NCBI RefSeq assembly: GCF_000165425.1 | Contig: NW_001799634.1 | Location: 125,328 to 189,327 of the forward strand | Reading direction: 5' to 3' | DNA: 64,000 nucleotides | Source: Paramecium tetraurelia | Lineage: Eukaryota; Ciliophora; Oligohymenophorea; Peniculida; Parameciidae | In this document: positions 2,504-60,498 of the stretch, piece after piece | How positions within the stretch are numbered: the stretch's first letter is position 1 | Layout of the letters: the number at the start of each line of letters is the position of its first letter | Notes under the pieces: model-generated | What the model saw: the letters and a program-made list of their open reading frames with translations, nothing else | Databases searched by the model: none | What the model was told of the DNA's origin: nothing | Translations under genes and position numbers: made by a program

Positions 2504-5500
2504 TCATTGTTGTTTGATGGCATCTGAGTTTGGATAATGAATCATTATTAGTTCTTGATCGGCTGATTGCATCATTTTGATTATCCAAAGAGATACGCCT
2601 CCTTCTTTGATGGTCATCATAAAGAGGATCATAATTACAATCAGGTTATATACCAGATTGTCATACACAATCGAACTTGCCAAGAAAAAGGTAATTGTGG
2701 TTAAATTGTATTCATTTCCATCTGTTATGTAGTAAACTACTCTATAGATACTTAAACCAATTATAGCCAGTGATAGAATGGTCACGATTAGTTTCAGAAT
2801 AATGAACTTTTGGTTCTTCAATGGGATATTCATCAAAAATGTATAGATAGAAAATGCCAATGGAGTTAATAGAAATACTAGGGCTAATTGATAGTTAAAT
2901 TAAAAGTAGATGTATGTAATGAAAATGGATAACTGAATGAACAAGAACCTGAGCACATAATTGAAATAGGAAATCTTCCTGTAGGCTTCATCTCTATAGA
3001 AGATACTTACCAAAGTATGGAAGTTTAAAAGAATTAGCTTAAATTTCTTAAATGAGGTAGGCTTTGTTATGTTTCTCAATGATGGTGAGTGCTATTCATC
3101 TTGATGCTTGCTTTCTTTAAAATTGAAGATCTCGCTCTTCTTCATATCTGGAGTCTCTTCTTTTTGATTGGTGATGATAATTTCCGATTAGGATTTCTTA
3201 TGATTATAGACTTTTGCAAATTGAGTATCCTTGTAATGAGCAAAGAAGGCAAATAATAAAGTGATAGATCCTATGCATATTAAATAAATAAAGAATGGTT
3301 CTGATATTAATAAAGTGTCAGAAGTATTATCTAGTTTTGAATTGTTATTACTATTATTAGTTGTATTAGTATTAGTATTTGTATTTGTATTATTTGTATT
3401 ATCTGTACTATTATTATTATTATTATCAGTGTCATCAGTATCATCTGTAGTTGAATTTGAATTATTATTTGTATTGTTGTTATTCGTATTGTTATCTAAT
3501 GTACTATTAATAACGATTGTAAATGGATTAAAATAAGAAATCTTACATGAAATTGCAGATTTATTGATTAGTGTTGTTTCTATATCTTTAGATGTCCAGA
3601 TCTCAAATAATTTTTAAATACAAATTGTCCTCTTATTTGCATAATCTTCGTCAACTATAAAGGTGTAAGTGTATGGTTATAGCATTACGGCATTTATTTT
3701 TGTTAATTCATCAATCACTCTCAAATAGATTACTTCAGCTCCAAATGAATCACTCTTAGGGAAGCTCTCCTCATTCAAGTAGGGATTCACAATGAATTTA
3801 TTAAAGTAGTACTAGTAACTTGATGAATCTTCGACGGATTCCAATAATCTAAACACAGTCTCCTCCTTCAAAATGTTTCCTGCAATCTCATTTATAACTT
3901 TATAACTCGCCTTCTTCACCTGTAGTGTTGCTTAATCATTCTCAATGGTAAAACCATCACTGTTCAATAAAGTTAGATCAATTAATTGAGTTTTGAGATT
4001 CTCTATGTATCCCAAAACCTGTTCATTGGTGGTGTTGAAATACTCGCTATTGGAAATTAAGGACGAGAACAAATCAAAGTATTTGTAATAGTTATTGATA
4101 TAACTTTGTTATTACAAGGTGCTCTGAGAATCTAATTGCAAAGCCTTGAGTTTTTCAAAATTGGATTAGATGATACTATCGAAAGAATCCAGAGAATATA
4201 ATTGAACCTTAAATTATTTACTCACTTCTTTGTCATTAATCAGTTAAATCATTTGATTGAGTATTAGATTTTATTGATCTATTGGTAGATCATTTTATGC
4301 TATCAAATCATTCTTTCTAATTAAATCATATTTGAATTATGAGCAATTATCCATTTGCACAACTCTACTGACTACTAGATCTTAAGTCTAGAGTGTATCT
4401 TCGATGTTTTCGGAATGATCTATCATTTAAGTCAATAGAGTTTAATTGATTTCAAAATTCTTAGTGATAACTATAGGAGTAGTAAGATTTGAGATTCCGT
4501 CCCTCTTATCTTTGATCATGAACACTAAGAAAGATGTGAAATTCACAGATTATTTTGGACCAACAAATGGTAATTTGAATAACATTGTGCTATTCGATTA
4601 ATAATCCAAGATATTGATATTGTTGATGAACTTTCCAATTGAGAAATCGTAATCATACATGTCTTTGTCATTGTAGAGTAACACTTTATATTCTAAGGGT
4701 TGATCCTCGTCTTCACATTAAGCGATACTTATATTGACATAGGTTTTAAGTTCATAGATGATATCGCCAGGGTTGTTGAAAACTAATGAGCAATTCATTG
4801 GAGGCAAGTTATAGGTTAGAATAATGCTTCTTAATGAAGGCATGACGTAGGTTGGATTGTAGACTGATGTTCTCAGTGTGATTTCATTACCTTTAATCGA
4901 ATTGAGATCGGAGAAATAATCTAGCAACCTAAATTTAAAGGTTAGACTGTAAAATTTGAATGATTTAACCGAGACCTGATCGTAAATGATAGTGGCTGAA
5001 TAAAATAGGTTGTCTGGATTGGCTAAGGAGTATGAAAATGCCAATTAGACTTCATCATAATAGTTAAATGTTTTAGCCATTGTCTCTGCTTCCTCTGTTT
5101 CATTTGCTGATTGCAACTAAGGAACATCAACTTCAACTATTTGAATCATTGATTTGCCGGTAGCTTATTTATTTCCCTTTGTGGATGATGCACTAAAGAC
5201 ATAAGAATTATATTGGCTGAGTTCGTTGGCATATATGGTCACAGATTTACCATTTGGGTATTTGAGGAGTTTACCATACAAATCTAAACATTCATAACCT
5301 TTCAAAACATCAAAACATGTCCAAGAAAATACATATTGAAATGGATCTGATTCTTTGGGATTGATATCTTAATCTATTGCTGAGGCAGTCAAAATAACTA
5401 TGGCCACATCACCAACTTGTCTATTTCCACCACTTACTTTTATGACCAAGGTACCTTCTGATATTTCTTGATTCAAAAATACGGTAGTTGATAGTAACTA

Positions 5501-8500
5501 TGAAGGAACACTGATTGTAACAGTGATATTATTAGACCCAACTTCAAGAATGTAAGGATCGATGGGAACTTCAAAGTCGAAAGCAGAACTCATCTAAAAG
5601 AAGAATGCCTAGTTGTATTCAGCCAATGTGAGTGTATCCAATTTAATCAAAACATGGACTGTGTCGCTCATCTCTGTAGTCAGAGTACAATTTGTATAAA
5701 TGAATGTAAAATTGAGCTAAGTGGTCTCATATCTATAGAAGGTATTCTGTACATCAGGTATCTATATACTTACCTGAGCAGGTCCTAAAGTTTGGATGAA
5801 GTATGTATTCTATGCATCTAAGGCCAAGAAATTTCGTAAATGGATGTCGAATGAAAAGGTTGTATATGGTTTTAAAACTAATCTAGGAATTGTGATGTTA
5901 GTGTCAGAGGTCTTAGCTGGAGTGATTGAATTAATAATGGTATCTAACTGAGCATTCACATAATTTGCAGGTTGAGTCAAAGTCCAACTAAAAACATCTA
6001 GATTCCTGCTTCCAGTATTACCAAGACTGTACTTGATGACTACTGGCTCACAAATTGTTTTAGGCTGTTGAGCCACAAAGTTAATGTATGGTAGATTCTC
6101 TTCATTCGAAACAGCTGGATCGATTATTAAGTTGCTGGGTTAAAAGACAGAGAAACCTGTAGTACATATTTTCAATTTGAAACCAGTTCCAAAAGCGAAG
6201 GAGTGTCCAATATTGATAGTAGAATACTTGCCAAGTGTTACAATAATTGTAGTATCATCGATTATGCAGATGGGATTCGTGCCTAGAGTAGAGAGAGAGG
6301 ATGCCTAGAAGTACTGATCACAACCTGTTTTGGTTGGATCAAGTAAATCCAAAGGTCCTCCAAAATCAATTTTAATTTTATACAATCCTGAGGTTAGGAT
6401 AGAATATGGCACACCCATATTACAATTAGTACAAAACACAGATCCAACACTCTTTCGAGAGTAACCATCCTTACATATGCATTTACCAACAAATGGACCA
6501 TTCATATTACCTTTGCAACTTATACATCCATTTGAATCACAATCTCCACATTCAAAGGCACATTTAATACATTAACCTGAATAATCAAAGTAGCCAGATG
6601 GACATGTGCAAAAAGGTGGATTTTCTCTGATTCCTGAACATGTAATGCATTTATCTGCAATTTCTGAACAAGTTGTACAAACATCACTACAAGGTTAACA
6701 AATTGGACTGAGATTATCATAGAATCCATCAGGACAAGTACATTAAGGTACATTTTGTCTTCTATCTGCACAAGTTGTACAAATGTTATTTACACATAGT
6801 TCACATTTATAATTGCATTTGGGACAATCATTTGAAACGCCATCTTCATAATAATAGTCAGGACATCTACAAACAGAAGTGAATCTATTTCCTCTACAAG
6901 TTACACAATTGTCAGCTTGTACTTTACAAGTTGCACATTTATGATCGCAAGGTAAACAATTTACAGTTCCAACATCATAATACCCTTTTAAACAAGTGCA
7001 TTAAGGTTTATTTTATTATCTTGATGGTTAGCAAGTAAGACAATTGGATGATTGGAGAGCACATGTTGCACATTATGGATCACAAGGAATAGATATTGCT
7101 ATCAAAGGATGGCATTCAACTCCGGTTAATGTATATCCAACACTACAACTGGTTACACATTGCATTCTCTCAATATATACTGGACATGTCAAACAATCAT
7201 AGCTTGATCCTCCTTAACAGGTAAGACAAGAGGAATGACAAGGCATGCAGGCTTAATATGTGTCTGAGGCATAGGTTCCATTTGGACAAACAGTTAAACA
7301 TTTACTTTAATAGATATATGATGTAGTTGGACAAGTAGTGCAATTATCAAACAAAGGACCGTAACAAGCCAAACATGTTGGATCGCACTATGTACAAATA
7401 TTGGCAGCTGCTCCATAATATCCCTCTGGACATTCAGGTAAACAATTATTAAAATAGAAAAAGTAACTACTTGGACAAGTCAAGCAATCATCAGTATCTG
7501 GGCCAGAGCAGGTTTTGCAAATAAAATTACATTTCTAACATTTTCTATCATCATTAGATTTGTAATAACCATCGTAACATGAACTAAGACATTGGCCATC
7601 TTAAAAGAAATAACCAGATTAACATAATTTACAAGAACTTGAAACACAAACATCACAGTTATCAATACAAAATTCGCAAGTAAATGTTTGAATATTCCCT
7701 TAATAAGATGGTGGACATGTATCATAACATTATCCATTCAAAATATATTTTTGTGTACTGCATTATGTGCAATCATAGATATTTGTACCTACACAAATAT
7801 CGCAATTTAGAGCACAAGATTAACATATTCCATTAACTGCCACTGTTCCAATTGGACAAATTGGATAACATTTTCCTGAAAACTACAATAATCCTCCACT
7901 GCAAGTTAAGCACTAATAATTTTCACCTCCTGTACATTCAATGCAAGCAGCATTACACTTCAAACATTTTTGAACGTATTGATTAGGATACATATTGGAT
8001 GGACAAGTCTCAACACAAAAGTCATTATATAAATAATATCCAGCAACACAAGTTTAACAAACTGTTGGTGAAGTGCAAAATTAACAACCTTGATAACAAG
8101 GAGCACAGAATTTACCAGATGGATAATATCCTTCTTTGCAAACCTTATAACAGATTCCCGTTACTGAGGAAGAATCCAAAACCAACATATAAGTATTATC
8201 AGGACAAATTTTACATTATGTGAAAAGAGGATTGTTGCACTCCTTACATGTTTGATGACACTTTTTGCATGATCTGGTAACATCATCACCATAGTATCCA
8301 GTATCACAAGGAGAGATACACAATTTTGAGATTCTTGACATATAAGTATTTGCCTAACAAAGAAGACATTATGATTCCGAGCAATTTTCACATTTTGGAT
8401 CAGGACAAGGAGTGCAATCTTTATTTAATCTGTATGTTTTGATAGGACATGCTAGTAAGCATTAGTTGAATAGTAAATCATATCCAGGATCGCAGCTTGT

Positions 8501-10178
8501 ACATTTAGATTGAGTATCAGCACATGTCTTGCAACTAATCTATTGAAAAGTTATAGATTAATATTACATCACACATGACACAGAGAGTTCTGTCAACAGT
8601 CTATTGAATTGTGTAATAATTGGAGGGACAACTCAGAACTGCTTGGTTATCTGGCATAATCATGTATGGTTTTTTGAAGGTAAGACAATCTTTATCAGTA
8701 CGACCCGAACAAGTCAAACAACATGGTAGACAATCTAATCATTTAATGATGCTATATATACTCTCGCATTTAACTGCTGCTGTATTCTCAAACTGATATG
8801 AATAGATACAAGTTTAACATTTGTTATTTATGTCAAAACCGTATTTACATAACTAACATTTTCCTTTGACATCAGTTGCATCGTAAACACATTTGGCACA
8901 TCTATAATCACAAGCTTTAATATAAGAAAAAGTCCTTACCTTTGCAGGTATGGTCTACTAGATCCTCGTAATACTACTCATTACATTGGCAGGTGACTAG
9001 ATTTCTGTTGTCAACACTCGAACAAGCATCACATGTTCCTTCAGCCTTACAAGCTTAGCAGTATTATGGACAATTCTTAGAAAGCAGATAAAAGTTTGTG
9101 ATTCCCAGATCAATTGGAGTAGTTATTTAAATGGTTATTTAAAGATTTGTATTTTCATGATTGACTTCGTAATCCACAAAATAAACTGAATCGGTTCCAC
9201 TATTCCCATAGAGATTACCTGCTTGTATTCTGGATATGGAAGTATCAGGAATCACAATGGAACCTGAGGGACCGTTTATTGTGATTATTAAATTTGCTGA
9301 TGTTAATATTGTTGATGTATCAAATGCATAAACGTAAAAACTGAGTTTAATTTTGTAATGAATATCTAAAGTTTACGTAAATGTTATGGTTCCTGTGTTC
9401 CATCTTCTGTATCCTCCGATGATGAAATTGGCAGCAGAGCCCCCAAAAGTAAGTAAATCATATTTTTAAGAGCTGATTGCATTTATACTAGTATAACTGA
9501 ATTTGGGCAAAACAGTGTTTGGATTCTGTGAGGGTGAAGTAAAATAATAAAACTATTGGTTCTAAACATAAGTATATGGTGATGCAACTGTGGGACCAAT
9601 TTCATAAATTAACACTGGGCCCACATAGATTGTTTTCTTTTTTGTATTATTGTTAAGAGTTGGGATACTGATCACTAGCTTCAATATGTAGTCTGAACCG
9701 CTTGTTAGAAGTGTGGTTTTTAGTACCTAAACTTTAAAAACCAGGACTTTAACACTACATATTAATATTTCAAATTTACTTAGATAATGAGCAATAGGAC
9801 TCTATCAATTGAGTTGTAGTTGTTAATTATTGCGTCGTTATTGTTGTTGTACCACTTTTTATCGCCAGAGAATCTCCCTCCCAAGTTCCTGCAACAATTA
9901 TTTTAATATATATCTCATGGTCTTTGTTATTAACTACATATTAATTAGATATTGATTTTGCCAAATCACTAGTTATGGTAACATAAGGTTGTTTTAAGGA
10001 TGAACACATTGTTGCTGTGATAGCTAGAGCCGCAGATGCTTCATCTACCCAAGTGTGAGCCCCCGTAGTTACTAAATCAGATTTTACCAATGTATACGAT
10101 TAAGTCATGACTAAAATTAATGTCTATGATATGGTTACCTTAATATAGATTTGTTATCAAGATAAACAAGAATTTCAT
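2504..10178 (-). CDS. Giant REJ/furin-like membrane protein, paralog A
   Basis: This is the first of three paralogs (about 2,500 residues). The start at 10178 gives a signal peptide beginning MKFLFILITNLYQ. It is set by a 28-nt intron at 10111-10138 (GTAACC...TTTTAG) that joins it to the long frame. Reading N to C: a beta-rich region with GTW-type repeats (10.1-9.1 kb); a cysteine-rich furin-like array (about 9.1-6.5 kb); and an REJ-type ectodomain at about 5.2-5.5 kb with GGNRQVGD, an SxxDxD-like stretch, FSWTC and a downstream Cys. Then come a helical juxtamembrane region, a weak GPS-like site (IWTSKD...ISCK near 3.54-3.62 kb), an Asn/Thr-rich stalk, one membrane segment (about 3.25-3.31 kb), a charged loop, and several C-terminal membrane helices. 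The stop TGA is at 2504-2506. It is probably a cell-surface or ciliary-membrane receptor-like protein. No PLAT domain was noticed. Introns beyond the first were not all mapped. Confidence 0.8.
3310..3525 (-). repeat. Asn/Thr/Ser codon repeat in the stalk of paralog A
   Basis: On the coding (minus) strand this stretch encodes alternating Asn, Thr and Ser with some Asp, made of AAT/AAC/ACT triplet repeats. It lies between the GPS-like site and the first membrane helix, so it looks like an extended hydrophilic stalk. The Val/Leu-rich plus-strand reading is only its shadow. Confidence 0.8.
6480..9080 (-). repeat. Furin-like cysteine-rich array of paralog A
   Basis: The translation shows dozens of units of about 45-60 residues with CxxC, CxxCxxC and C-x-G-Y/F spacing (for example CxNCxxxCxTC and CPxGYY). 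These are typical of furin-like or growth-factor-receptor Cys-rich repeats. On the DNA they appear as regularly spaced aca/gca blocks on the plus strand. The likely role is extracellular and disulfide-rich. Confidence 0.85.
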
Positions 10179-10372
10179 TAAAAATAATTATTAATTAAAA
10201 TCTAACTCTAGAAAATCAGATAATAAATTCTAAATTAATTCGCAATTCAGCAATTTACGTTTTAATAATAAGGCTCGATCTTTTTCATATTCTATGATTT
10301 TTAAATTAATTAATTAATTATATATATATAAATGTTATTTAGATAAATTATTTCAATATATTATCTTATTCC

Positions 10373-13300
10373 TCAATTTTATCTTATATTATCTGCTAAT
10401 CCAAATAAAAACTCCTTTGTTTTTTCATCCAATATCTTCTTTAAAATCGTTTAAAGGATTGGAATTCTTATTATGTCCATGTGTATGAAATAAGTAACTA
10501 ATAAGGATAATGGACTATAAATTAAATTATCTGCAACAAATGCCCCTATGAAGATTAGACTCATTTAATTTGACTACTCTATTTAATTCATCAACACTAA
10601 ACCGGATAACATAATGTAGGAAATAAAAGCAGCTCCACCAATCATTATCATAACTCCAATCATTCTTACCATCTTAGATTTATTAGATAATGTTTTTTCT
10701 AACACAATCTAATAAACCTTATTTGCAGGTGCTGTTAAAGCGGATATAGCAATTGTAAAACTTAAGTTATTGGGTTGCTAAAATAAAAATATCAAAGCAA
10801 TTCCACCTAGAAAACTTACATAAACGATTGATGCTCTCAAACTTCTTGGTTTGATAGGATCATCTTTATAAATTATTTGTAGAATTTGATGGAAATATTT
10901 GAGAAACTCAATGAATGCTTTAAAATTTGAGATTAGCTTTCTGTATAACATACTTTTAAGTCCAATATCTTAAATTGTTAGTTACCTTTACAATTTCTAA
11001 CCCTTAGATTGTTCCTCCTCCTGTTTAAGAGGTTCCTCTTATTTAACAAGCTCCTCTTATTTATTGAATAATCCTTGTTTAATAATTCTTGTAGATTGCA
11101 ATACTTAAGATTGACTGAATAGCGAATCAATTTTATTAAGATTGTTGTTTAACTTTTCTTCAGGTTTAGTTTCTAAAGTAGCTTATTTAATATTCTATTA
11201 GTTTTGTGAGGAGGTTATTGGTTTTAATTTATTGAAAATAATTGCCCCATAAGAGAGTCCTGTTCCAAACATGTTTCTTTTAAATAAAGGTATGTTATGT
11301 TAATATTCAATCGATGAGTCTCTCAACTACCCAGTCTTAGTATATTTTGAATCTGCTCTTTTGATTAATTTATTTTGGACTGTATTTTTGCCTTCAAGTT
11401 AATTTATAACTTATTCTTATTGAATATGTATTTAGGAAAAAATTTAATTATCTACTTTTATTCCCCAATAGACAATTGTGAGATATAAACCTGTGATTCC
11501 AATATAAAAGTAAAAAATGATTGTCTAATAAAATGGAAATGTTGCAAAGGCATCTAGGGTGTTAGATGAAAAAACTTGGCTTCCTTTATCTATAATTTAT
11601 TCAATGGATTCCATAACTGTTGTAGGACTCAATTCATCGCATTTGCAAATGACTTCCAAATCCTTTTTAACTGTTTTGCAGATATCAGCAGCCCAAGTCC
11701 CATTTTATAATTATGAAACACATTTCAGAGATGTGTTAGACTCTAAGGTCCTAACTTTAGGAATGGAAAATGAAACATCCTCTCCCAACTTGGAATTTCT
11801 ACTACTTCCAGTTTCCTATAATTTTGGATCCACTACTTAATACCCAGAGGTGTTTTTTGGAAATTGGGGTGTAGGATAGAATGGATTATCTTTGAATCTA
11901 GTAATCGAAAACTTGTAATAATTTGTAGCAGCCTTGTATATATTAGTCACTTCTTGACTATCTCCTATTGGTTATCCAAAAGATGAGTTTAGACCTACAA
12001 TCAATTCTACTTATTTTTTAGTAACAAATCCAAAGTCCAGATTCACTGAATTCTAAATCATTTTGTACAGAGGTTCATTAACAACACTAATAGATTGTAA
12101 ATGAACTTGCATTTAGTTCAAAAGATACTATAAGTAATCTGAAGTAACATTTTAAATCACCTTAAAATTGATACCACATGATAAGATATCTGCAAAACTA
12201 TAGTACTACCTAATATACTCATTTTTGTCAAGGTTCTACTCTGAAGTCAGTTGACTTTGCTTTTACAGACTAAAATAGCGAGACAGGATTGAGAATGCTT
12301 TCAATGTTCTATAATTGACTTGACCCAGCAAGAGTGATTCATTTATGGACATTAATGATACATTCTAACTTAGAAGATTCGAAATAGATCGATATAAGGG
12401 TTCTGTTTGATTGGCCAATAGTGTTTAATTAACATCAATTGAAAGTAATTCTTTGTATAAGTTTTCCTTATATTGAGTGAATGATTTGAGTTACTTCAAT
12501 CTCTCAGTAATAAAAACGTAGCCAATTAACTACTCATCAAAACTTTTGAGTTTAGATTAATATTCTTTGAATGTACTCTCATCTATGCTTTTGAATTCCC
12601 TTACATTGACGGATAATGTCAAATTCACTATGCCTTGTTTTGTATTTTTAATATTGAACACTAATAAGGGCTCGGCCTCATAATAGTAGGGTAAAATCAA
12701 CTTAAAATGATTTGAATATTGAAAATCGCTCAGCATAACAAAGCTATGGAATTTAGCGGTAATCAGTTCTTACTTGTAGGTGGATTGATTAGGAAAGAGT
12801 TGCACACCGTAAAAAAGAATGGGATTAGCATCCCGACAACCTGTTATTGAAATGCTCAATTCGTCTAAGAATTCTACATAACTTTCAGGAAATTAATAAG
12901 ATAATGAGCAATTTTAAGGAGGAATATTAAGATTTAATACTTAAGTATTGACTGATGGAAGTATAAATCGAGGATCATAGACTGATAGTCTAAGTTTTAC
13001 TGTGTTTGCTTCGCCAAACTCTAAGTCAGTGAAGTGATCTTACTCCCTATATTTGAATTGTAGATAATAGAACTCAAACGTGTTAACAACTTTTTAATCA
13101 TAGATTACAGCTCCTGCATACATCAATAAGTCAGGATTCACTCCAGGGTATTGTACTGTGAATATAAGTTCGTCATAATAATTATACAACTAGTCCTGAG
13201 TTGAACCATATACGATTAAACTTGGGAGATCTATTTCTATAAACTAGATAGAGACTGTTGTAGAGTATTTGCTATCCTATTTAAAAATACTAACTTCGAA

Positions 13301-16300
13301 ATTGGAGACTGTGTATGGATTGAATGTCTTTGGTTTAATAAATTATATGCAACTTGTATTAAATTCCAAAGGTTAGCCATCTCGATTTTAACAAAATGTA
13401 CCATTTACTATATCGACACATGTCCATGAACATTCATATACATATGTATTAGCTTCCTGTTCATTTAGATCACGGTCAGAAATAGTGGCATTTAGATATA
13501 AAGGATCTGAAAATCCAATCATTCTATTGCCTCCAGCTATAGTGAGAATTGGACTTGATGGGACAATATAAAATTCAAATCTAGATGAGCTATTCACTGT
13601 GTAGTCAGCTCTACTTAAAATAGTATTGTAAATAAGAAGGAAAGGATTATTGAAATTAAGGAAGTATGGTTCAAAAGTAACTGGAATATCAAATTGATAA
13701 CCATCTATGAGATTTTCTGTCAAATTGCCCTTGACAACTGTCATTCTTAAATTGGGAAAATAAACTTCATAAAATACTATTTGAGGAGGAGGGTTCTTCT
13801 CAATGCAATTGACATAACTTAGTCGGTTTGGAATAATGATATTCTCGAATCTTTTAAATTAATTGGTAGTTGAAATTGATACTAAATTAACTGAAGATCT
13901 TTGAATTGCTTTAAATTGAACTTCTATTGTATTCTAAAGTAATGCAAAACTCTCTACTGTAACACTGAATTTGTAAGTGGTTCCACTTACAAATATTTTA
14001 GCTGGGAATTCTAGATAAGGCGTTTTATTTTAAGTATGAGTTAAAAGAATGGCTTCGATGTCTGGGGAAGGAGGTGGAGGTAAGACGAGATTCCAAGATA
14101 TTATATTGAAATCTTAATTTCCATTAAATGCTAAGGAATCAAACTCTATTTTCATTATTTCACAAATGTTGGGATTTTTCAAATCCTTGAATTTTAGATT
14201 TGGTTTATGTGTTGTTTTATCAATTGTGATTGGTATGGATAATGGCATAGGGATAATTTAAATAAATTTGATTTAACATCCACTCAATAAAAATTCATTG
14301 TTTAATTTTAACTTGTCTCCAACTTTAATATTAGGATTATCACCAAAATAAACATTGAACTCTAAATTACAACGAGGATTAGTTCCCAATTTTAGTAGTG
14401 TTTCAGGATGAAAGAATGCTTCACAAAGAGAATCAATTTCAAAAGGAATATATACCACTGGTCCTCCGAAATCAAAAGTAAATCCAGTAAATTCTTCATT
14501 CAAAGCAAAATAAGGAACTCCAACTTAACAATCAGTGCAATAGACTGATCCAATGTTATATCTACTTATTCCTAAAGTATCACATTTACATTCTCCAAAA
14601 ATAGGTCCAATTCTATTTCCGAAGCAAGACAGACACCCATACTAGTTACAATCGACGCAAGTTGGATCACATTATTGGCACTCAATATCTGAATTCTCAA
14701 AATATCCCAAAGGGCATTTACAAATAGGAGGCTCAATTCTTATAGATGAGCAAGTATTGCATAAATTGGATGTTCCTTCACAAGTAGAACATCTTTTAGA
14801 GCATTGCTAACAATAATATGAATAGGCATCGTAATAACCATCTTTGCAAACACAATCTGGTAAGTTAATACGATCAGCTAAACAACTAGTGCATCCATCT
14901 TTATCACAATTTTAGCAATTATCTTAACATCTAATACAATTAACAGATGAGCCATCATCAAAATAATAATCTGGACAAGTACATGCTGGATATTATCTGT
15001 CTCCTTTGCATTTGATACAATTAGTTGGCAGACCCTTACATGTAGAACATTTGTTATCACATTTTAGACAAACTGAGTTTGTACCATCATCAAAATAACC
15101 TGGCTCACAATCGCAATTAGGTGGATTAGGAGCACGATTGGCAGCACATACTTTGCAGAATCGAGGAATTAGCCAACATGATTCACATTAGTATGTACAG
15201 TGATCAAGTACAATATCAAAGTCTGGTTCACAAGATAAATGATTTTTGCTTATTGAAAATCCTTCGGGACAATCACTCACACATTCAAAAAGATAAAAAT
15301 ATTATGAACAAGTTAAACAATTCTAATTTGATGGGCCAAAACAAGTTAAGCAGGATGAATGGCAATGATAGCATTTATTTTCAGAGAGAACTGGATATTA
15401 ATCGCTCGGACACTCATTTGCACAAGTGCCTTATAAAGTTAATAATTTATTTTGAGGACAAACTAAACAGTTATTATTATTTGGTCCATTGCAAGCAATA
15501 CAATCATTGTTACAATACTTGCATTCATTGTTTAGAACATCATGGTATGTATTACCCAGACAACCTGGAATACATTTATTCTTCCACAAGATTAGATTAT
15601 TGTTACAACTCAAACAGTTAATTGAATCTTCACCAAAACATGTTAAACATGTAATATCACAATGATTACAAATTTTATTAAATCCAAAATATCCAGTTGG
15701 ACATACATCAAGACATTAATTATCGTAGTAATATTAATAATCCAAACATTTGATACAATTTAGAAATTGGCATTTACACACATATTAAGGTCGAATGCTA
15801 TAATAGAATTGAGGACATTTCACATAACATTAATTATTTAAATAGTAGTAACCTTAAATACAAGATAGACATTAATTCTGTAAAGTACCATAGCACTTCT
15901 TACAAGTATTTACACAAGGAGTACAAATGTTATTGACATTACCATACCCCTCCATACATTCAGTTAAGCATTCATTTTAATAATAAGCCAAAGGGAAACT
16001 GCAAGACAAACAATTTTATGATAATAATCCGTAACAAGTTCTACAAATGGGATGGCAAGGAGAGCATAAGCTTCCAATATTATTATTATAATATCCATCA
16101 GGACATTAATTGTAACACAAACCATTGCTCTTTAATCTGTAATAACCTCTTGCACAAACCAAACAGTTTTAGGTTTAATCAATACAAGAGGAACATCCCT
16201 TCCAACATTGTAAGCACACATCACCTTCCTTATAGAATCCAGGTAAACAAGTAAATTTGCACTCTCCACTAATGATGTTTTTCACATTTAACACGTCCCC

Positions 16301-18513
16301 TGGATTACAAGATAAACAATTGACATTAGTACTATTATCACATGTTTTACATGAAGGTTCACATAATTGACATAATCGAGCCTAAAAATCTCCATAATAA
16401 CCATCATCGCATATAATTTAACATTCATTTTTGCTTGCCATATAATAATACCCTTCTAGACATTGTTGGCATGTTGGTGAAATACATTTTTAGCAGCCAT
16501 TTATGCAAGGTGCACATGTCGTTCCTGAAAAATATTCCCCTTCCACACAAATAAAACAATGTGAATTCAATAATATTCCTTCAGGTATGCAATCAGTGCA
16601 ACTTGTTGCTGATGTATCGCATTTTAAACAATTTGGATCACAAATTGTACATTTTGGATCAGTAGGTGTACTAATATCTTAGAAATATCCATCAGAACAC
16701 TGCTATATACATTGATTTGTATTGCTTTTGAAATACCCACTCTTACAATTTATACAACTGGCTAATACTATACATTTCAAACACCCATTTTAACATGGCT
16801 AACAATTAATCTCACCAGATTTGACAAAATATTCATCAGGACATGTATTACAAGTTGGAGGATTGGACCGTTTAGTCGCAGCTACACAACCCACACAATT
16901 CCCTGCCGTGATGCATGTAGTACAAAAAGCGGGGCAACTTATACAAATGTCACTCTGTAAAGCATATCCTGAAATGCAAGTGCAATCTTAAGGGTTCTTG
17001 TAGGTTGGATTAGTGCATGGAGGACAGGATGTTTATGTGAAGCAATTTGAACATCCAGTCATGCATTAGAAGGAATAAACATGAAGATCTTCTATGTAGA
17101 AATAACCAATATATTTTCCTTCTTATAAAGGTTATTCTATTCTGAATTGAATTGAATTTTAAACAAGATTATTCTCCTCAGTTTTTTACCAAGTCCATTC
17201 ATAATTTAATATATAATCTTATTTGTCCTATCTCAGTCTGTTTTGAGTATCCAATAGTACTGGAATATCATTCTATTTAGCTCCATTTATATCAACTTCA
17301 AAATTAGTTGGATAAAAATCAATAAAATGACAAGTTGCTCTAAATTTTAGTTTATGTTGTGGGTTTTTAATAATTGTATAGATCTAAATGGATTAGTTTT
17401 TAAAGTTATTATATGAGCCAATATAAAAATTGTTATCCAAATAAAAAAATTATCTTTCCTTAGGTCTTTTTGGCTCGGAAACTATCATGATTTATAGATC
17501 ACTTAATGATAAAAAATGCATAAATTCTGCTACTGTTCTTATGAAGTAAACATAGTCAACAGGATCTAGAGATATGAAGTATAGATTTACATCCTGAATT
17601 TTCATTATTGGATAAGTATTCTTAGTAATCCAAACAGGTTTAAGTAGTTTCATCTTAATAATAATTGTTGGGACACTTAGAAATACAAACAGGTAAGTCT
17701 TAGCCTTATTCTAAATAAGAATAATATCCTGAGTCGCATTATAAGTTTTAATTTAATCCAACACAGGAGGTACAATGTTATTTTAAATAACATTAATTAT
17801 CATCTAAGCTATATAAATAATTCTAATCGCAAGAAGCAATGCATTAGGTTTCTTGGTATACCAAGGCATTGTTACATTTACAATAGTAATGAGCTAAACT
17901 TTGCCCGAGATTACAAACATGTAAATTTAGCATTGTTTATAATAATTCTCCTCTTCCTCTTTGAATTTGTTAGCTAATAATCACATTTTTTATATAAACT
18001 CCTACATTATTTTTAATCACCCTAATTTACAAATCCAAAGTGCTTTTAGGAGTATTGTATACTAAATACATAAAGGAATTAAAAAGGAAGCTTAATTTAG
18101 GAGGAAAATTTACTTTTCGTTACAAAGTTTATTAGTATCTGTGAGCTAGATCTTTTCCGAGCATTATTTTACATTATCAACATATAAAACAACTTCATCA
18201 TCATTCCATTACCCTGATGTTTAATATTCAAAGTAGATATAAACTTTATTAGTTAAGGGTTATATGTTGAAACTTCTTTGCCATTAGATTTAATTTGAAT
18301 TCGTAGCTAAACCTATGTAGTTTTCAGACTTGTCATTTGTGCACAACAAAACTGATGAACTTGAAATTAAGTCATTCCATTAACTTGAAGTAGTCTGAGT
18401 AGTGACATCGCTTTAAACCAAATACTTGCCAACTAAATAGATATCTTTAATTTACAGCAGCATTATATTGCAAACTATATTAAGAGAACTTATAAGTATG
18501 TTAGGATAGGCAT
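10373..18513 (-). CDS. Giant REJ/furin-like membrane protein, paralog B
   Basis: This is the second paralog (about 2,650 residues), tandem to A with under 200 nt between them. The start at 18513 gives signal peptide MPILTYLQVLLIQFAIQCC. A 23-nt intron at 18433-18455 (GTAAATT...TATTTAG) links it to GKYLV, which aligns with paralog C. Domain order is a repeated beta region containing NWND-type motifs (18.4-17.1 kb), a Cys-rich array (17.1-14.5 kb), and a conserved module with FDFGGPVVYI and CEAFF (14.3-14.5 kb). These are followed by an REJ-like region with IAGGNRMIGFSDPLYLNATI and a CSWTC signature (13.4-13.6 kb), a GPS-like motif (11.6-11.73 kb), a membrane segment with FYFYIGITGLYLTIVYWGIKV, a charged loop, and C-terminal helices ending KEFLFGLADNIRQN. 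The TGA is at 10373-10375. It is much closer to paralog C than to A. Confidence 0.82.
11613..11730 (-). other. GPS-like juxtamembrane motif in paralog B
   Basis: The coding strand gives NGTWAADICKT, then VICKCDELSPTTVME, about 20 residues before the first membrane helix. The Trp-x3-Ile-Cys, Cys-x-Cys and Leu-Ser-Pro-Thr-Thr spacing matches the Cys/Trp framework of GPS (GAIN) motifs in polycystin-1 and adhesion GPCRs. Whether it is cleaved cannot be told. The usual His before Leu-Thr is absent. Confidence 0.55.
14515..17080 (-). repeat. Furin-like cysteine-rich array of paralog B
   Basis: This is a Cys-rich repeat array equivalent to those in A and C, with CxxC spacing, CPxGYF-like ends and frequent CxxCxGxxxxxC units. 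The order of units matches paralog C closely, for example the pair ending CNGPNNNNCLVCPQNKLL in B against CTGPNNNECTACPNEKLL in C. Confidence 0.85.
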
Positions 18514-19024: not shown

Positions 19025-19400
19025 TCAACTTTTGAATAGGCATAGGAAGAATTTATTAGAATTGTTATAACTACAACCTGTTAAAGTTAAAAGATAATTT
19101 TGACTTAATAGGATCGCTTACTTAACTAATTGAATTTTTTCCAAAAATAATTGAAAAATCTGAATTAATTACAGGCTCTCCTCCTACTTTAGAAGAGTAT
19201 AAATTCAAAAAATGCATCGCACAAATTTATATTTTTTCTGAATCCAAATAAACAACCAATTCTCCAAAATTAAATTCGTTATATTCTTCATTCAATTCAA
19301 AATGTAGTACTGATAGGGAAAATCAGTATAATAAACGGATCCTTAACAAAATCTACTGATTCCTTTGGAAACAATTTTGATGCTTATCTTAACTACTTAA
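19025..19400 (-). pseudogene. Decayed fragment of the REJ/furin-like family
   Basis: The minus strand matches the module of paralog C at about 27.42-27.75 kb. An exact 18-nt match (AAAGGAATCAGTAGATTT) lies at 19349-19366. Recognisable stretches follow for LNEEY-EFNF, VYLD, a KVGGEPV-like patch, SDFSIIFG, and finally TTAACAGGTTGTAG as in C. The frame is interrupted by several indels and TGA stops, so it cannot make the protein. The Cys-rich array before it and the REJ region after it are missing. It is a host gene relic, most like paralog C, consistent with an old fourth copy or a rearrangement scar. Confidence 0.8.
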
Positions 19401-20815: not shown

Positions 20816-20969
20816 ATCATAAAAACTAAATCAGAGACATTTGAATACAACAAATTAATAACAAATCCAGAGCATGTATTTAGATTTGCCATATTTCAGT
20901 TTTTTATATTCTGTAAAACATAAGTGATCACTATAATAAACAAAATTAGAAAAACAAAAATGACCTGAA

Positions 20970-21286: not shown

Positions 21287-21620
21287 TAGTAAAAATTATA
21301 ATATATTATGATCACTTCAATAAGATGCTATCTCTCCTTTTGATAAGAGATAGATTTGCTATTTATTAAAGAGCAAAAATTATTTGATTTTGTTAATAGA
21401 ATACTAAGTTTGCCTTTATTTTCAGTTAATTGAACTCTATTGCAGGAAAGTGTTTGAAGAGCTTGAATAATAAATTAATTCATTAATCATCAATACAATT
21501 AAGTAATACAATATCAAAATAAGAAATTCTTAAACCATTCTCAAATATGCTTCGTATCTAGTACTATAAAGGCTCAATTAAAGATCAAATATTTTGAATT
21601 AAAAATATATATAAGCAAAA

Positions 21621-23463: not shown

Positions 23464-26400
23464 ATGATTAAGGTGATAATTTTTATCGTTCTTTTTTACG
23501 AGCAGGTTCTTCTGCCATGTAGTAAGTTTAATTATCAAATTAGAATGCAAATATTTAGTTTTAACGGATCTAACAAACGAAAGTACTGTAAGTTTATGGT
23601 CCGACGAAACCTTAAGTCTCCCTTTATCTTTTTGTACAAATGAATTATCAGAAAACTACATAGGCATAGATACAAATATAAATTAAATATATTGGAAGAG
23701 AACATTTTCTCTACCCAAAACTAGCAGACTTTATGTTTACTTCGAGGCTTCCTTATCTGGCAATTGGAATAATGATGAACTACAGATATATGCAAATGAT
23801 TAAAAGGTCTACTCTTAAAAATACACTTTAACAGATTCCAATAGGGATTGTCATCAGAGGTATACTGTATGATGAATTATAGATTTCTTTATGAAATCCA
23901 AGGATATTTTGTAATAAATATGAGATTCGATTCTCTAAAATTTGAATTAAAAGTCAGTAATACAAACTTGGGTATTTATATAAAGAATTTGGTCTTGCTT
24001 TAGTAATAATAAAGGGGGAGAAATGAAATTCTTCCATTTATTGATTACATTCCCGCATGTAATCCAAATTTTTATTTTTCTCAATATTATTGCAAGTGCT
24101 CCGACAATTTAGTATATTAATCCAACTTGTGTTTAGCTGCCTGCAGTTAAAATTATTTGTATGACTCAACTGAAAAATAATGTCTTGCAAAAGACTATTG
24201 TACTTCTTGTGTTGGAACTCAAACATCATTAACATGTGATGCAGGGTATTATAAATATTCAGGAACTGATATTTCTGATTAAAATTGTGTTAAGAGATGC
24301 CCAAATGGTTATTATCAAGATGAAACTACGAAGACTTGTACTGACATGAAATCTTATCTTTAGACAAATCAAAATGGAGGAGGTAAATTATAACACAAAT
24401 ATTTAGAATAAATAAGTCATTATTACTTTTTTACTACACTAGCAGAATTCATGCATTTTTATGCATACAATGATTTTATCGCAACAGTTGTTTCTATTCC
24501 AGAAAAAACCAAAGAAAGAGGCTATTTCTATTATAGTAATAGATTTTATGTGGGTTCATTTGATTCATTTTAATCCCAAAAGGTGCTGATCACAAAAAAT
24601 ATTCAGAATTCTCAACATAAACTGCGATTTAGAGCTGTTGCCCATTTTATTGATTTCAATCCTACTAAATTTGATGTCACAATCAATGGTGTAAAATAAA
24701 CAGCAGCTACTTTACAAGTTAATACTATTAATATTTTATAATCATCGAATTCAGATTATATAGCTTATCTAGATTATACGTGGGTTAGAACAGAATAGTA
24801 TCCATTAACTTAAGACAATATTCTTTTTGAAATCGAATAACCATCTCAAGGAGGAAAATATATTGGAGTTTTCTTTTTGGATGATATTCATCTCTATTAA
24901 TTTCAATGTTAAACTGGATGCAATAGTTGCTATAATTATGCTTATTGTACTCCTTGTCTTAACCCAGCTAATAAAAATCCTGCTGACTGTACATGTTTAA
25001 CAGGATATGTTATGTAGAATAGCTAATGCATAGGTATTATTAATGATTTAAAATATAGCTTGTCCAACTTATTGCACTACTTGCGTTTCTGCTGGAGTCT
25101 GTGTAGATTGTGTTGCATCAACCAAAAGAATCAATTCTCCTAATTGTGATCAATGTCCTGTTAATTATTATCTAGATGCAGGAATGACGAATTGTTAACC
25201 TTGTTAAACTGGATGCTATTCATGTACTGTTGGTTCTGCATGTATTTAATGTGCCCCTGGATACTTTAGAAATTAAGCAAACTAATGTATAACTTAATGT
25301 CCAGATGGTTAGTTCAATGATTCTAGTAATGTAAATGATCCAAAATGTAGTATTTGTAACAATAATTGTTTGAAATGTTAAACATTGGCTACGACATGTA
25401 CTGCATGTAAAGGATTGGCTACTCTTGTTTCTGGTTAATGCTATTTGTGTTCCGAAGGTCAATATTTATCAGGAACTAATTGTGTTAATTGTATAAGTGG
25501 ATGCTAAACTTGCTCATCTGTCACATGCACAACATGTTAGGATTCTTTTTATTACAAATCTTCCACCAATGAATGTATATCCGTTTGTGATCCAGGATTT
25601 TTTGGAAATATAACAACTAAAACATGTGATTAATGCAATTCAAATTGTTTAACATGTGTAGCTGATACAAATAAGGACTGTCTCACTTGTCCAGCAGGCA
25701 AAGTGCTTAATATCCAAAATGTCATAAGCGGAGAATGTTAAACAAACTGCTTAACAGGGTTCTACAAGGTAGATGATGGCTGTTCAAAATGTTGGAAAGG
25801 TTGCTAAGCTTGTATGGATTCAACTCAAGCCTGTTTGACTTGTGCAAGCAAATTTTATAGATTGAAGACAGATGGTTGGTGCTATGAAACTTGTCCTAAT
25901 GGATATTATAATAATTAAATAGGTTACTTGTGTTCTCCTTGTAATTCCTTATGTAAGACCTGCTATGGATTTTCAGAATTAACTTGTTTATCATGTAATG
26001 CTCCTTTGGCATACTTTTAAAACTAGTGTTTAGTCGAATGTTATGATGGTTATGGAAGCATCTCCAACATTTGTCAACCATGTGCAGCCAATTGTAAGAA
26101 ATGCTTTGGTACATAACCCAACGAATGCCTTGAATGTATGACTGGTTTTTATACTCTAAATAATCAATGCTATGTGAAATGTCCAAAATCATTTGTTGGC
26201 ATCAGACCTCAATATGTTTGTAAATGTATTTATGACAATTGTATAACTTGCACCTCCTCTTAATATTTCCTGGATAATACATGTTATAATATATGTCCAA
26301 TTGGCTATTTTGGATATAATGGTTTGTGTATTAAATGCGATGTTACTTGTGGAACTTGCTTTGGAGAGGGAGTAGACGAATGTTCTTCTTGTAATACTGG

Positions 26401-29400
26401 ACTAATTCTATACTAAAATACTTGTATAACGGATTGTTTAGGGAAACTGTATCAAGATGTATTAGCTAATGAGTGTAAACCATGTCATATTGAATGTGAA
26501 GCATGTACAGGACCTAATAATAATGAATGCACTGCTTGTCCAAATGAAAAATTGTTGACGATAATAAATACATGTAGTGATACATGCACTGATGGTTCAT
26601 ATTCTGTATTAAGTGAAAAAAGGTGTTATCCCTGCCATGCAACTTGTAAAACATGTTTTGGACCGGCTGACGAAAACTGTTTATCATGCACCAATTTATA
26701 TTAAGCCAACCAATGTGTAAACACATGTACCCCTGGATTTACAATCAATGCTACTGGAACTGCATGTGATTCCGACTTTCCTCTGGTGATAGGAAGTTGC
26801 TCATATTAGTGTAAGACTTGTGAATTAGCTCCAAGATTTTGTAAATAATGTGCAGGAAATCGTAGTCCCAATCCTCCTAATTGTGATTGTGAAGCTGGCT
26901 ATTTTGATGATGGAAGCAGTTCAAATTGTCCGAAGTGTGCTAATAAATGTTTGACTTGCAAAGGATTAGCAGATCTTTGTGTCAAATGTAAAGGAGATAG
27001 ATTATTGCCAACTTGTACTTGTCCAGATTATTTTTATGATGACGGAGAATCAGTCAATTGTGTTAAATGTCAAGATAATTGTAAGACTTGTGATGCTAAT
27101 GGATGTACATCTTGTTTAGGAGATAGAATTAATAATCCCAGTTGTGTATGTCCTGATGGGTATTTCGATTCATATCAAATGTATTGTTCTCAATGTGCAA
27201 AAAAATGTGTAACCTGCACTGGATCAGCAGAGTTATGTGATGTTTGTTCAGGAATTAGAGTTAGTAAGCCAATATGTGGATGTCCAGAAGGCTTTTTTGA
27301 AAATTCTGATTAAGAATGTCAACAATGCGACTCTACCTGTAAGGATTGTAACTAATATGGATGTTTATCTTGCTTTGGTAATAGAATAGGTCCTATAAAT
27401 GGAGAGTGTAAGTGTGATTAGAAAGGAATCAGTAGATTTAGTGTAGGATCTGTATATTGCACTGATTGCTCGTTAGGAGTACCTTATTTTGGATTGAATG
27501 AAGAATTTAATGGATTTAATATTGATTTTGGAGGATCGATTATTTATTTGGATTAAGGAACTACAAATTTGTGTGAAGCATTCTTTGAAACAGATACTCT
27601 TTCTAAATTAGGAACAGAACCTGTATGTAATTCTGATTTCTCAATTATTTTTGGTTAAAATCCAACTATCAAAGTAGGTGATTCTATTAAGTTAAAATTA
27701 TCTTTTATTTTAACAGGTTGTAGCTATCAATTCTTATAAATTCTTCATATGCCTCTCTCTATTCCCTCCACTATTGATTTAGAGACTCATAAGCCAAGTA
27801 TCAAATTTAATGATTTGAGTACTTCAAATATTTGTTCAGACTTAACAATTAGATTTGAAGAACTATATTATAACGGAAGGTAAAAATTCAAAATTATTTC
27901 ATGGAATCAATACATCCCTTCCACAATTGACCATTAAATCTAAACTTTATTAAGTGCTAATACTTTGAATCATAGTGACACTCTAACATTTCCTCCAAAA
28001 CTCTTTCAATCAAATACTAGATATAAATTTGGTGTCACTGTTGAAAGCTTTGCTAAATTATAGAACATAAACTATTTCTAATTTGAAGCCAATTAATAAT
28101 CAAAAATCAATTTTTATCCGATCTCAAATAATGACTAATTTCATAGGTATGATTAAATCTCAATCTAATCTTAAATATCTTATTCAAATTGCATAGAGAA
28201 AGTGTATCCAAAATAAACTTTATTTTATGAAATTAAATTGAAAAATACAAAAGCTCAATTATTAAATGGAACTTTGACAGAGAATTTAGAAGATGGATTT
28301 GTTTTAGATATTCCTCTTGATTTCAATCAGTATTACTTCAATTTTTCTAATCCATATATATTAATTTTTAACACCAAACTAACTAGACCTGATTATACTG
28401 TTAGCACATCGCAACACTTTGAAATTTATATAGTGCCATCGAATCCAGTCCTTACAATTGCAGGTGGGAATAGAATGATTGGATATACAGATGATCTATT
28501 TTTAAATACAACAATTACAGATCAAGATTTAACTCAATTAGAAGCATCTAGAGTCATTTATGAATGCAATTGGAGTTGCTAAGATATAGTGAATGGATCT
28601 GCATGTTAGGATTAATAAAATTAAACGATTCTATTTGACAAAAGTTGTAATCAATATTTACCACCTCGTACATTTGCTCCTTATCAAGTGTTTAATTTCG
28701 AAGTAGCAATTGTAAAAGAAGAGATTATTCATTCTACCAAAATATCCATTCAGTTAATTGAAATAGATTTACCAGCCTTAACAGTTCTAGGAGTAAATGC
28801 ATTAGAAACTCATAATTATTATGATGAATTCATCTATTAATTAGTATATCCAGGAATAAATCCTGATGTATTAATGTATGCTGGAGCAGTCATCTATGAT
28901 TAAGTTGTTTAAGCTACCTTCCAATTTTATTATTTAGAATTTAAATTTAAAGTCCAAGACTACTTTACGAACTTCTAGGATTCCTTAGGCAATGGTCTCA
29001 AATTAAGACTTTCAATTTATGACCCTCGTTTCATTATGCCATCCTTAAGCACTCAAATGTTAACTATGAACATTCCTCCTTAGAATTGTGGATTGGAAAT
29101 GAAATACAATGAAGGATTTGTTGAATTCATTGAAGCACTAGATGTTTCAGTTGTTAATTGTACTGATGCTGATGCACCTCTTTTGTATAGTGTTTGGATA
29201 TTTCCTAATGAATCAATTTATCAGTCTGACCTAGTCCAATCTAAATTCTACAATTATATGTTGCTAGAGCCATTTCAGAAAACAAATTCATTTAAGTTAT
29301 ACTTACCATATTTTAATGAAAAGTAGTCTCTTCTTGTATTCAAAATATAAGATTCATTTGGAGGTGTAATTAATATCACTTAGACCTTTGATATTAAATA

Positions 29401-31684
29401 ATATTTATAGATTGATGAAACTACATTTACAAATTATGAGAAGTAAATTGAGACCTTAGACTAGCAGTTAATTGGATATAATTTAATCACCGAGAGATTA
29501 AAAATAGTAAATGGATCATAAGAATACAAAGAACAATTATTCTACAAATTGATTACTTTTGATTAAAATTAAACATTTTTAAGCAACTAAACGGAAAGTC
29601 TATATAGATCAATTTCTAAATTATTGAGTTAAAATGTAACGCTATTAAAATCAAATGAATCAATGTTACTCAATTAATTGAATTATAGAATCAATTTAGC
29701 ATATGCTTAATTGACAATATTTTATAGTTTGCAGAGGTAAAATAAATTGAATTCTACCTAAAACATTGAAAAAACCACTTATATTTCACAATACTATACA
29801 TTCTCAGATATTCTGTCCTCATGTCTCAATTATAGAGTCTCATAGAACTTAACATCAACCGATATCTAAAATCAACTATAAGAAATGCAATCACAATTAT
29901 AAGCTATTAGTGTAGCTAATGAGCCACTTTACAAGGTTTAATCAAACTCTGTAAATTTGAATTTTGGTTATCTTACGACCAAAATGGCAGGAGAAGTAAC
30001 AGGTTCAAAATCAATCACTAAAAGCAGATTATTGGAAGAAGAAGCCAGTGAATCAAATACTGATTTAAATACTTCAACCAATTTCTTCAAATTTTCAATG
30101 ACTAGATTTATTGATAACCCATTTTATGCTGATAAGAATTTTCCCAAGAATAGTAGTGGATATCAAGCTATTGATCCAAAATTAATTGCTGATGCCAAAT
30201 CCAATATTAGTAAGGCAAATTCTCAAATGAAATACAAGTTTCCAACTCCCAAAAAATTAGAAAATAATACTTAAATTAAATGTATAACTGAAGTTGAAAG
30301 TGGAGAATGGAATGCTGATGTTTGTAGTACAACGGAAGCTGATGGAGAGGCGACTTGTTAATGTGAATCTCTAAATCCAACTTCTGTGATGGAATCATTG
30401 AATTTTATTGCTGATAAAGCTGCACAAGTATTTTCCTTGGATACTCTATTGGCCTTCGGATCATTCCCATTTTATAAGACAGTTGTCTTTTACTTCTATC
30501 TATTAATCACAGGTGTCTACATAGCTGTGGTCTACTGGGGAGTTAAAGTTGATAATGCTATGTTTACAAGAATTCATGCTGAACAAGAATTAGCAGAGTA
30601 AAAACTGAAAGAAGAATAATTGAAATTGGAGAATATTGAGTAAGACCTTGAAAACAAAGGGGAAAATAAAGAAATTACAGAGAACAAATAAGAGTCTCAT
30701 TCTTTCAGGCAGCTTGAAGAAGTGAAAGAGCATGATACACCATAGGTTGAAGTCCTACCAACTTTAGAAAAGAATATCTTTAAAAATCCAAAATCATTTG
30801 ATAGAGTAATACTTGAGAACAAAATCTCGATTGTTAATTCTCCATAAGAACTACTAATTAATTAAACTCCAGAATCTAAACTTGATATCAACTTAGTTAT
30901 CAACCATGGAATGCCTAACGGATAAGGATCTGATCTCCTATTGTTAAGGCAAACATCTTTAAAAATTGACAATGGACTTCATACCTTAGACAATATTAAA
31001 AACGAAGAAGCTTAAGAAAAGTAAGAAAAATAGGAATAGGATAAGAAAAAGGAAACAGAAGGGAATGAAGAGTAGAAGTAAAAACCAAAAGGATTAAAGG
31101 ATTTGATGATTAAGAATTCCATCTCTAGAATTAAAGCCTACATTGAGTACCTTAAGTTTTTCCATTAGATATTACAGATCATATATAAATCAGATCAAAA
31201 GAAACCTCGAGGTTTGAGAGCTTCAATTGTTTACACTAGCATTTTGGGTAGTTTGGCTGTGTTATTTGTATTTAATCAGCCAAATAATCTTAGCTTTACT
31301 GTTGGTTTAGCATTAATAACTGCCCCAGTTAATAAGGTCTATTAGATTATTTTAGAAAAAACATTATCTCATAAAAAGAAGGTAGTCAGATCCTTTGGTG
31401 CAATTCTAATGATAGTAAGTGCCGGTCTCATTTCTTATGTTATGTTGGCAGGATTAGTAATGATGGATTCAGTGGAAACTGCAAACCAATGGAGTTTTAT
31501 TTTTGTAGGAACATTCACTCTGGATAACCTCTTTTATTGTCCAATTTCATTAATTTTCCAATATTTTGTTCATATGGAATTCATTAAGCTACCAATTTTC
31601 TAAAAATTACTCGATAAGATACTTGATTAAAAGGCCAAGGAATTTTTATATGGTTTAATTGATAATATAGGAGGAGAAGAATGA
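23464..31684 (+). CDS. Giant REJ/furin-like membrane protein, paralog C
   Basis: This is the best-resolved paralog (about 2,700 residues). The ATG at 23464 gives signal peptide MIKVIIFIVLFYEQVLLPC. Clear introns are at 23522-23543, 23860-23882 and 25034-25058, all GTA...TAG. The order is an N-terminal beta region with SLWSDETL and SLSGNWNNDELQIYAN; a second lectin-like beta region (24.3-24.9 kb); a Cys-rich array (24.9-27.45 kb); and a module with IDFGGSIIYL and CEAFF. These precede an REJ-like region with IAGGNRMIGYTDDLFLNT, CNWSC and a following Cys (28.4-28.6 kb), a helical coiled region, a GPS-like motif (30.28-30.39 kb), membrane helix FYFYLLITGVYIAVVYWGVKV, a long Glu/Lys loop, and four or five C-terminal helices ending YGLIDNIGGEE. 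The TGA is at 31682-31684. It resembles REJ/polycystin-1 ectodomains. The order of parts is seen; receptor function is inferred. Confidence 0.85.
24890..27480 (+). repeat. Furin-like cysteine-rich array of paralog C
   Basis: About 20 or more Cys-rich units with CxxC and CPxGYY/F motifs. The C-terminal units are alike and nearly tandem: CPDYFYDDG, CPDGYFDS and CPEGFFEN, each preceded by CxTCxG or CKTCDA and an N-P-x-C turn. This suggests recent internal duplication of about 45 residues. Confidence 0.88.
30279..30392 (+). other. GPS-like juxtamembrane motif in paralog C
   Basis: The translation reads EVESGEWNADVCST, then GEATCQCESLNPTSVMES, shortly before the first membrane helix. Trp-Asn-x-Asp-x-Cys, Cys-x-Cys and Leu-Asn-Pro-Thr-Ser-Val match the conserved residues of GPS motifs. 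Autoproteolysis is not demonstrated, and the catalytic His position is Glu/Ser here. Confidence 0.6.
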
Positions 31685-35790: not shown

Positions 35791-35847
<57 letters not shown>

Positions 35848-56105: not shown

Positions 56106-56106
56106 C

Positions 56107-58149: not shown

Positions 58150-60498
<2,349 letters not shown>

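Follow-up and report, generated by a model that had tools for sequence, protein, structure and literature searches.

Three adjacent genes of the ciliate Paramecium tetraurelia, here called A, B and C, are described. They are found in a window (the whole stretch of DNA analysed) of 64,000 nucleotides (nt), i.e., positions 125,328 to 189,327 of contig NW_001799634.1, within a genome assembly of 69,072,372 bases and 231 contigs. Contigs and loci of this assembly are designated by C and L numbers, respectively. Gene models were obtained from the sequence alone by a dynamic-programming gene finder with table 6 (ciliate code), GT-AG introns being joined. In each of the three, a single protein carries a furin-like Cys array in front, then a REJ-type region, with membrane helices at the C-terminus. 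This confirms the observation of an earlier note on this DNA, and the modelled lengths (Table 1) agree with its description of three paralogs of about 2,500-2,700 residues.

Gene models and modules of A, B and C

The order of the modules is: N-terminal domain, furin-like Cys arm, REJ-type region, GPS-type pattern by the first transmembrane helix (TM1) in B and C, a loop devoid of PLAT and about four helices. The main reading frames are 2504..8569 (-) for A (2021 amino acids, aa), 10373..17920 (-) for B (2515 aa) and 24674..31684 (+) for C (2336 aa). In each gene this single frame extends unbroken from inside the furin-like array through the final helix; a split of ectodomain and membrane part into two genes, the possibility raised beforehand, is thus discarded. 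The introns joined in the three models are tiny (22-28 nt, GT-AG; 25-28 nt in the predicted model of A); a passage of PMC10974281 puts the introns of one P. caudatum gene at 20-23 bases. B and C are head to head. The signal peptide previously proposed for the three proteins is retained for A and C, where signal-peptide-like leaders are seen by eye, and is left uncertain for B together with its start and first exon (alternative ATG at 18513). Behind the Cys array, BLASTP gives 49% identity between B and C (1411 columns), 26% between A and C (1014 columns, 7e-89) and 24% between A and B (993 columns).

The Cys arm contains 54 CxxC before a GVPY stretch in each of the three proteins (overlaps counted). 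Its furin-like nature is upheld by matches above the Pfam cut-offs in A (Furin-like_2) and in B (GF_recep_IV, 30 bits, cut-off 29.5); all the Pfam matches of the arm of C are below cut-off. The genome-wide search with the GF_recep_IV profile gives a match in B alone.

Once the Cys-rich part is cut off, B matches the REJ profile PF02010 with an E-value of 4.6e-10 and 39.1 bits (cut-off 25), at residues 314-666 of the trimmed sequence and profile positions 69-433 of 452. A, B and C alike contain GGNRxxG, WxC and the Cys that comes after. PF02010 searched against the genome finds 8 stretches in five other genes and none in the window; the translations of these five genes have the same module order as A, B and C. 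REJ matches at E<=10 are observed in 8 of the 13 aligned family members (best 1.3e-26); they span up to 368 profile positions and reach 93.7 bits for L021. No fn3 match at E<=1 is obtained in the eight members scanned. By BLASTP with the part behind the Cys array, C matches L023 (3e-63) and both A and B match L024 (1e-49 and 4e-42, respectively). B matches L022 over the GPS stretch (6e-17), and the matches of A to L021-L025 end before the GPS. B and C are also homologous to REJ-positive relatives over the GPS stretch, and to L023 and L024 over the last helices. The REJ assignment is therefore sustained, by the Pfam score for B and, for all three proteins, by BLAST homology over the REJ region to REJ-positive relatives, of which A and C are clear homologues.

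The GPS-like motif C..W..C..CxC is found in B and C. In A it is degenerate: only the first and third of the four Cys, and the Trp, are kept. What was claimed for this motif thus holds for the Cys/Trp pattern (clear in B and C), and the Pfam GPS matches of these two stay sub-threshold. The pattern is invariant in the 11 members aligned for the GPS stretch, A (degenerate) and L025 (stretch split by an intron) being left out; the spliced model of L025 shows the pattern across the intron. In 12 of the 13 close members the REJ-type region is succeeded by the GPS pattern and this by TM1; A is the exception. The GPS cleavage tripeptide, HL^T/S according to PMC9672506, is not kept: ELS in B, SLN in C and no clear site in A. 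Since its His is missing in B and C, the GPS is probably uncut and self-cleavage is doubtful. Only A among the aligned members has a low-complexity stretch rich in Asn and Thr (window 3314-3500, - strand), placed behind its degenerate GPS and ahead of TM1.

At one threshold, hydropathy gives 5, 4 and 6 segments behind the GPS for A, B and C, respectively. TM1 is followed by a loop of 96 aa in A or about 218 aa in B (similar in C), then by about four helices; the loop ranges from 80 to about 450 aa among close members. A 1+4 layout of the helices is suggested by the alignment as much as by hydropathy. In the alignment the last helices carry conserved H..L.I and an R..R stretch; the latter may have some likeness to polycystin-1, which is not claimed here. 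The apparent lack of PLAT is borne out: there is no match at E<=10 in the membrane parts of seven members (A, B, C, L023, L024, L026 and L030), and the PLAT model (117) is longer than the loop of A. Searched genome-wide, PLAT likewise gives no match; the controls of this search matched nowhere, so its weight is small. The frames of A, B and C stop behind the last group of helices, at the point from which animal polycystin-1 would extend into its channel half (TM6-11). The PKD_channel profile has 12 matches in the genome, all outside the window.

Table 1. Positions of the three genes, their modules and a pseudogene fragment in the window.
Feature	Position	Strand	Details and basis
Gene A	2504..10178	-	2513 aa, 6 exons: 10178-10139, 10110-9780, 9754-8940, 8914-8762, 8734-8568, 8539-2504; predicted model
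Gene A, furin-like Cys array (introns included)	6430..9063	-	54 CxxC; Furin-like_2 1.2e-7, 32.3 bits, cut-off 28
Gene A, REJ-type region	4418..5494	-	GGNRQVG at about 5431; limits by alignment from B; BLASTP homology to REJ-positive relatives
Gene A, degenerate GPS-like stretch	3508..3628	-	alignment; 2 of 4 Cys and Trp
Gene A, membrane part: TM1, short loop, four more helices	2507..3313	-	hydropathy, 5 segments
Gene B	10373..18463	-	2680 aa, 3 exons: 18463-18114, 18090-17591, 17565-10373; predicted model
Gene B, REJ domain	12539..13597	-	PF02010 match
Gene B, GPS-like motif, then ELSPT	11639..11722	-	PF01825 sub-threshold; PDB profile
Gene B, membrane part: TM1, about 218-aa loop without PLAT, last helices	10376..11533	-	hydropathy, alignment
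Pseudogene fragment from another copy of the family, between B and C	19038..19378	-	79% DNA identity over 338 columns to C 27422-27754; tblastn 9e-18 with C; Cys lost
Gene C	23464..31684	+	2708 aa, 5 exons: 23464-23521, 23544-23859, 23883-24382, 24407-25033, 25059-31684; predicted model
Gene C, REJ-type region	28400..29458	+	in register with B; BLASTP homology
Gene C, GPS-like motif, then SLNPT	30281..30364	+	PF01825 sub-threshold
Gene C, last helices with H..L.I and R..R	31118..31681	+	alignment, hydropathy

The family in the genome

With B as query, 13 loci are obtained at E<=1e-3, i.e., A, B, C and ten further close members (L021-L030) on contigs C174, C198, C89, C216, C176, C134 (twice), C80, C187 and C47. 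A divergent sister branch of about 21 loci (joined rows counted) comes in with the queries L023, L029 and L037; it lies on contigs C63, C2, C209, C16, C171, C40, C126, C71, C144, C160, C202, C220, C186, C225, C207, C47 and C179. All these locus counts are lower bounds. The description of a «three-gene cluster» is an understatement: the close loci number at least 13, the divergent ones about 21, and the cluster itself contains a pseudogene piece.

As far as modelled, L021-L030 have the same module order as A, B and C; they differ in the GPS spacing and in the length of the loop behind TM1. The models of L027, L028 and L029 reach no convincing C-terminus. L021 and L022, both on C134, are 81% identical behind the Cys array and are placed tail to tail, with about 12 kb between the modelled 3' ends.

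In a tree of 16 rows, L026 is the nearest to C (99/99), and A joins these two and B (98/99); A, L025 and L030 are long rows, the placement of which is unsure. By simple count, dN/dS is 0.20 for L021/L022, 0.14 for L023/L024, and 0.19 and 0.10 for B/C and C/L026, the last two values being unsure since dS is above 2 (saturated). These four paralogue pairs, with dN/dS of 0.10-0.20, are under purifying selection. Together with the BLASTP identities among A, B and C and the ten further loci, this places the observation beyond chance. It must be noted that C and L026 are much closer in the furin part (pN 0.09) than in the remainder (pN 0.27), a pattern expected from gene conversion or from tighter constraint.

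Some loci of the divergent branch hold an in-frame TGA. The four of its members that were scanned give no REJ match at E<=1, and for one member the sole match is fn3, at 0.79. Among the about 21 divergent loci, 17 have a contig end within 35 kb, versus 1 of 13 in the A/B/C branch; this nearness possibly reflects assembly breaks at repeats. A link of the divergent branch to telomeres was considered and not upheld: the ends of C160, C144 and C225 are without telomere-like repeat (by eye).

Probable affinity with polycystin-1 and competing readings

The properties described above suggest, with a probability of about 0.6, a ciliate branch of the polycystin-1/REJ (PKD1) family, of which A, B and C would be giant receptors at the cell surface. 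In PMC1934368 the PKD1 family is defined, in the passage concerned, by possession of a REJ domain; on this definition B is a member. With polycystin-1/PKD1 and sea urchin SpREJ, the three proteins share the REJ region, a GPS-type pattern before TM1, a large ectodomain and the arrangement of one helix, loop and further helices. They differ from them by a furin-like Cys array and by the lack of PLAT, of the channel half and of the His of the GPS tripeptide. Moreover, a Pfam scan of the three main frames at E<=10, the first exons of B and C lying outside it, shows no PKD repeats, leucine-rich repeats or C-type lectin. The SpREJ proteins themselves, as summarized in a part of PMC1934368, have 0 to 11 helices, PLAT in 5 of 10 and several without channel half. 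With PLAT and channel half absent, A, B and C would be a novel form within the PKD1/REJ family.

For the GPS, a profile of the 11 members, compared with all PDB chains, gives 12 matches at E<=10: ten, including ranks 1-9, are adhesion G-protein-coupled receptors (GPCRs), and pancreatic lipase-related protein 2 accounts for the remaining two. The three alignments shown sit at the GPS motif. The reversed-sequence control gives 2 matches, neither of them an adhesion GPCR. A profile of 13 members gives 9 matches, the first three being adhesion GPCRs. Pfam GPS is found at E<=10 in 6 of the 11 members (best 7.7e-4). The six-frame search of the genome with the GPS profile has two matches, both below cut-off, one in L026 and the other on C60 (L031), which has no similarity to the A/B/C family at E<=1e-4. 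These PDB and Pfam results, none significant singly, jointly favour a GPS. With adhesion GPCRs (GAIN/GPS), the family has in common the C..W..C..CxC before TM1 and the best PDB matches of its profiles; unlike them, A, B and C do not have seven helices, HL^T/S is not kept and the similarity is below significance. The GAIN domain is said in a passage of PMC12716839 to predate Holozoa.

Several results weigh against the affinity with polycystin-1: (i) neither REJ nor GPS is matched at E<=10 when the three main frames are scanned untrimmed against Pfam (for REJ in B probably because of the Cys-rich composition, since trimming brought the match out), A and C trimmed like B give no REJ match of their own at E<=1, and the REJ match of B spans some 350 residues versus about 600 quoted for the domain; (ii) the PF01825 matches of B (0.0078, 17.1 bits) and C (0.057, 14.4 bits) are below the cut-off of 22.5, as is that of L026, A has no Pfam GPS match at E<=1 and 5 of the 11 members have none at E<=10; (iii) the best PDB E-values, 0.049 for the 11-member profile and 0.029 for the 13-member profile, are weak for best matches, and since the control reaches 0.12 it is the kind of match, not the score, that discriminates; (iv) a profile of the last helices has no PDB match at E<=10, no Pfam family is common to these helices among members (single members have weak, unrelated matches), and their descent from polycystin helices is at most putative.

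As a polycystin-1-like receptor, each protein would bind a partner cell, the cell's own coat or prey with its Cys-rich arm. The REJ and GAIN-like region would be an extensible, force-bearing stalk; stepwise unfolding under force is described for the human PKD1 REJ in a passage of PMC1934368. With the GPS uncut, a pull or binding may be relayed to the helix bundle by intact GAIN-like coupling, not by shedding. The bundle could then act on a kinase or on a separate channel, e.g., of PKD2 type; genes of PKD_channel type exist elsewhere in the genome. The three proteins may serve as receptors in contact, mating or the sensing of force.

Mating or contact recognition is suggested because A, B and C resemble in outline the Tetrahymena proteins MTA, MTB and MRC1, described in parts of PMC10901506, PMC3608545 and PMC8777248 as a furin-like/growth-factor-receptor part plus five helices. 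Hence a competing reading, possible and yet rather unlikely, in which the three proteins belong to the ciliate mating-type receptor family (MTA, MTB and MRC1 of Tetrahymena, mtA of Paramecium) and recognise partners at conjugation. The head-to-head placement of B and C, like that given for MTA and MTB, agrees with it, and REJ takes its name from a sperm receptor (as mentioned in PMC1934368). The likeness is however one drawn from descriptions; MTA (1423-1494 aa) and MTB (1733-1749 aa) are shorter in the sizes quoted, the available descriptions of MTA, MTB and MRC1 name no REJ or GPS, REJ and polycystin do not occur in the main text of PMC10901506, and more than 30 loci per genome are many for mating types. 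A wider idea, held still a little more tentatively, would unite MTA, MTB, MRC1, mtA and the A/B/C family in one superfamily: a REJ-GPS-helix module would be common to ciliate conjugation and animal sperm-egg recognition, here non-cleaved, without a channel of its own and spread over more than 30 loci.

It is improbable that A, B and C are a variable coat, i.e., Cys-rich surface proteins like immobilisation antigens or the variant-specific surface proteins (VSPs) of Giardia, with the membrane part as a mere anchor. The VSP (below cut-off) and furin-like matches of the Cys part, the divergent branch with its nearness to contig ends and the decayed copy inside the cluster would fit such a coat; an anchor alone would need neither several helices bearing a conserved stretch nor REJ and GPS-type modules under purifying selection, and the A/B/C branch is not near contig ends. 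Still less credible is a convergent REJ match, i.e., an FN3/Ig-like tandem scoring against REJ and unrelated to PKD1: the modelling of human PKD1 REJ as FN3 domains (reported in PMC1934368, in part), the lack of own REJ matches in A and C and the fn3 match of the divergent member point to it, but the REJ scores and spans given above, the lack of fn3 in the members scanned and the GPS-type pattern and TM1 that follow the REJ matches argue against it.

Significance and rest of the window

A large family with significant REJ and a GPS-type pattern qualifies the statement that P. tetraurelia has no PKD1. In the passages concerned, two papers give a Pkd1 homologue as absent from this species, PMC3556005 with the words that PKD1 «has no ortholog in P. 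tetraurelia», and PMC8535419 reports no PKD1L1 or PKD2L1 found. The A/B/C family provides candidate large partners for Paramecium PKD2. It would also make a polycystin-1-like ectodomain that lacks PLAT, the channel half and probably cleavage accessible to silencing and observation in a simple cell, and would offer a direct test of a possible common descent of ciliate mating-type proteins and animal REJ receptors. For the ciliate, such a combination of modules may help to sense touch or to recognise other cells. The open-access literature searched contains no paper joining the REJ domain with Paramecium, REJ/GPS with Tetrahymena, or GAIN/polycystin with Tetrahymena. The novelty is lowered in two ways: Pfam lists ciliate REJ proteins, and a structural paper of 2012 on GAIN domains reportedly mentioned Tetrahymena proteins with GAIN.

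The other genes noted in the window code for a 3'-5' exonuclease (33439-34317), two proteins with cyclic-nucleotide-binding domains (34818-36542 and 37482-38492), a myotubularin-like phosphatase (47503-48450), a poly(A) polymerase-like protein (49935-50750) and a protein kinase (58150-59310). A tRNA-Asp (gtc) is found at 56034-56106 (+).

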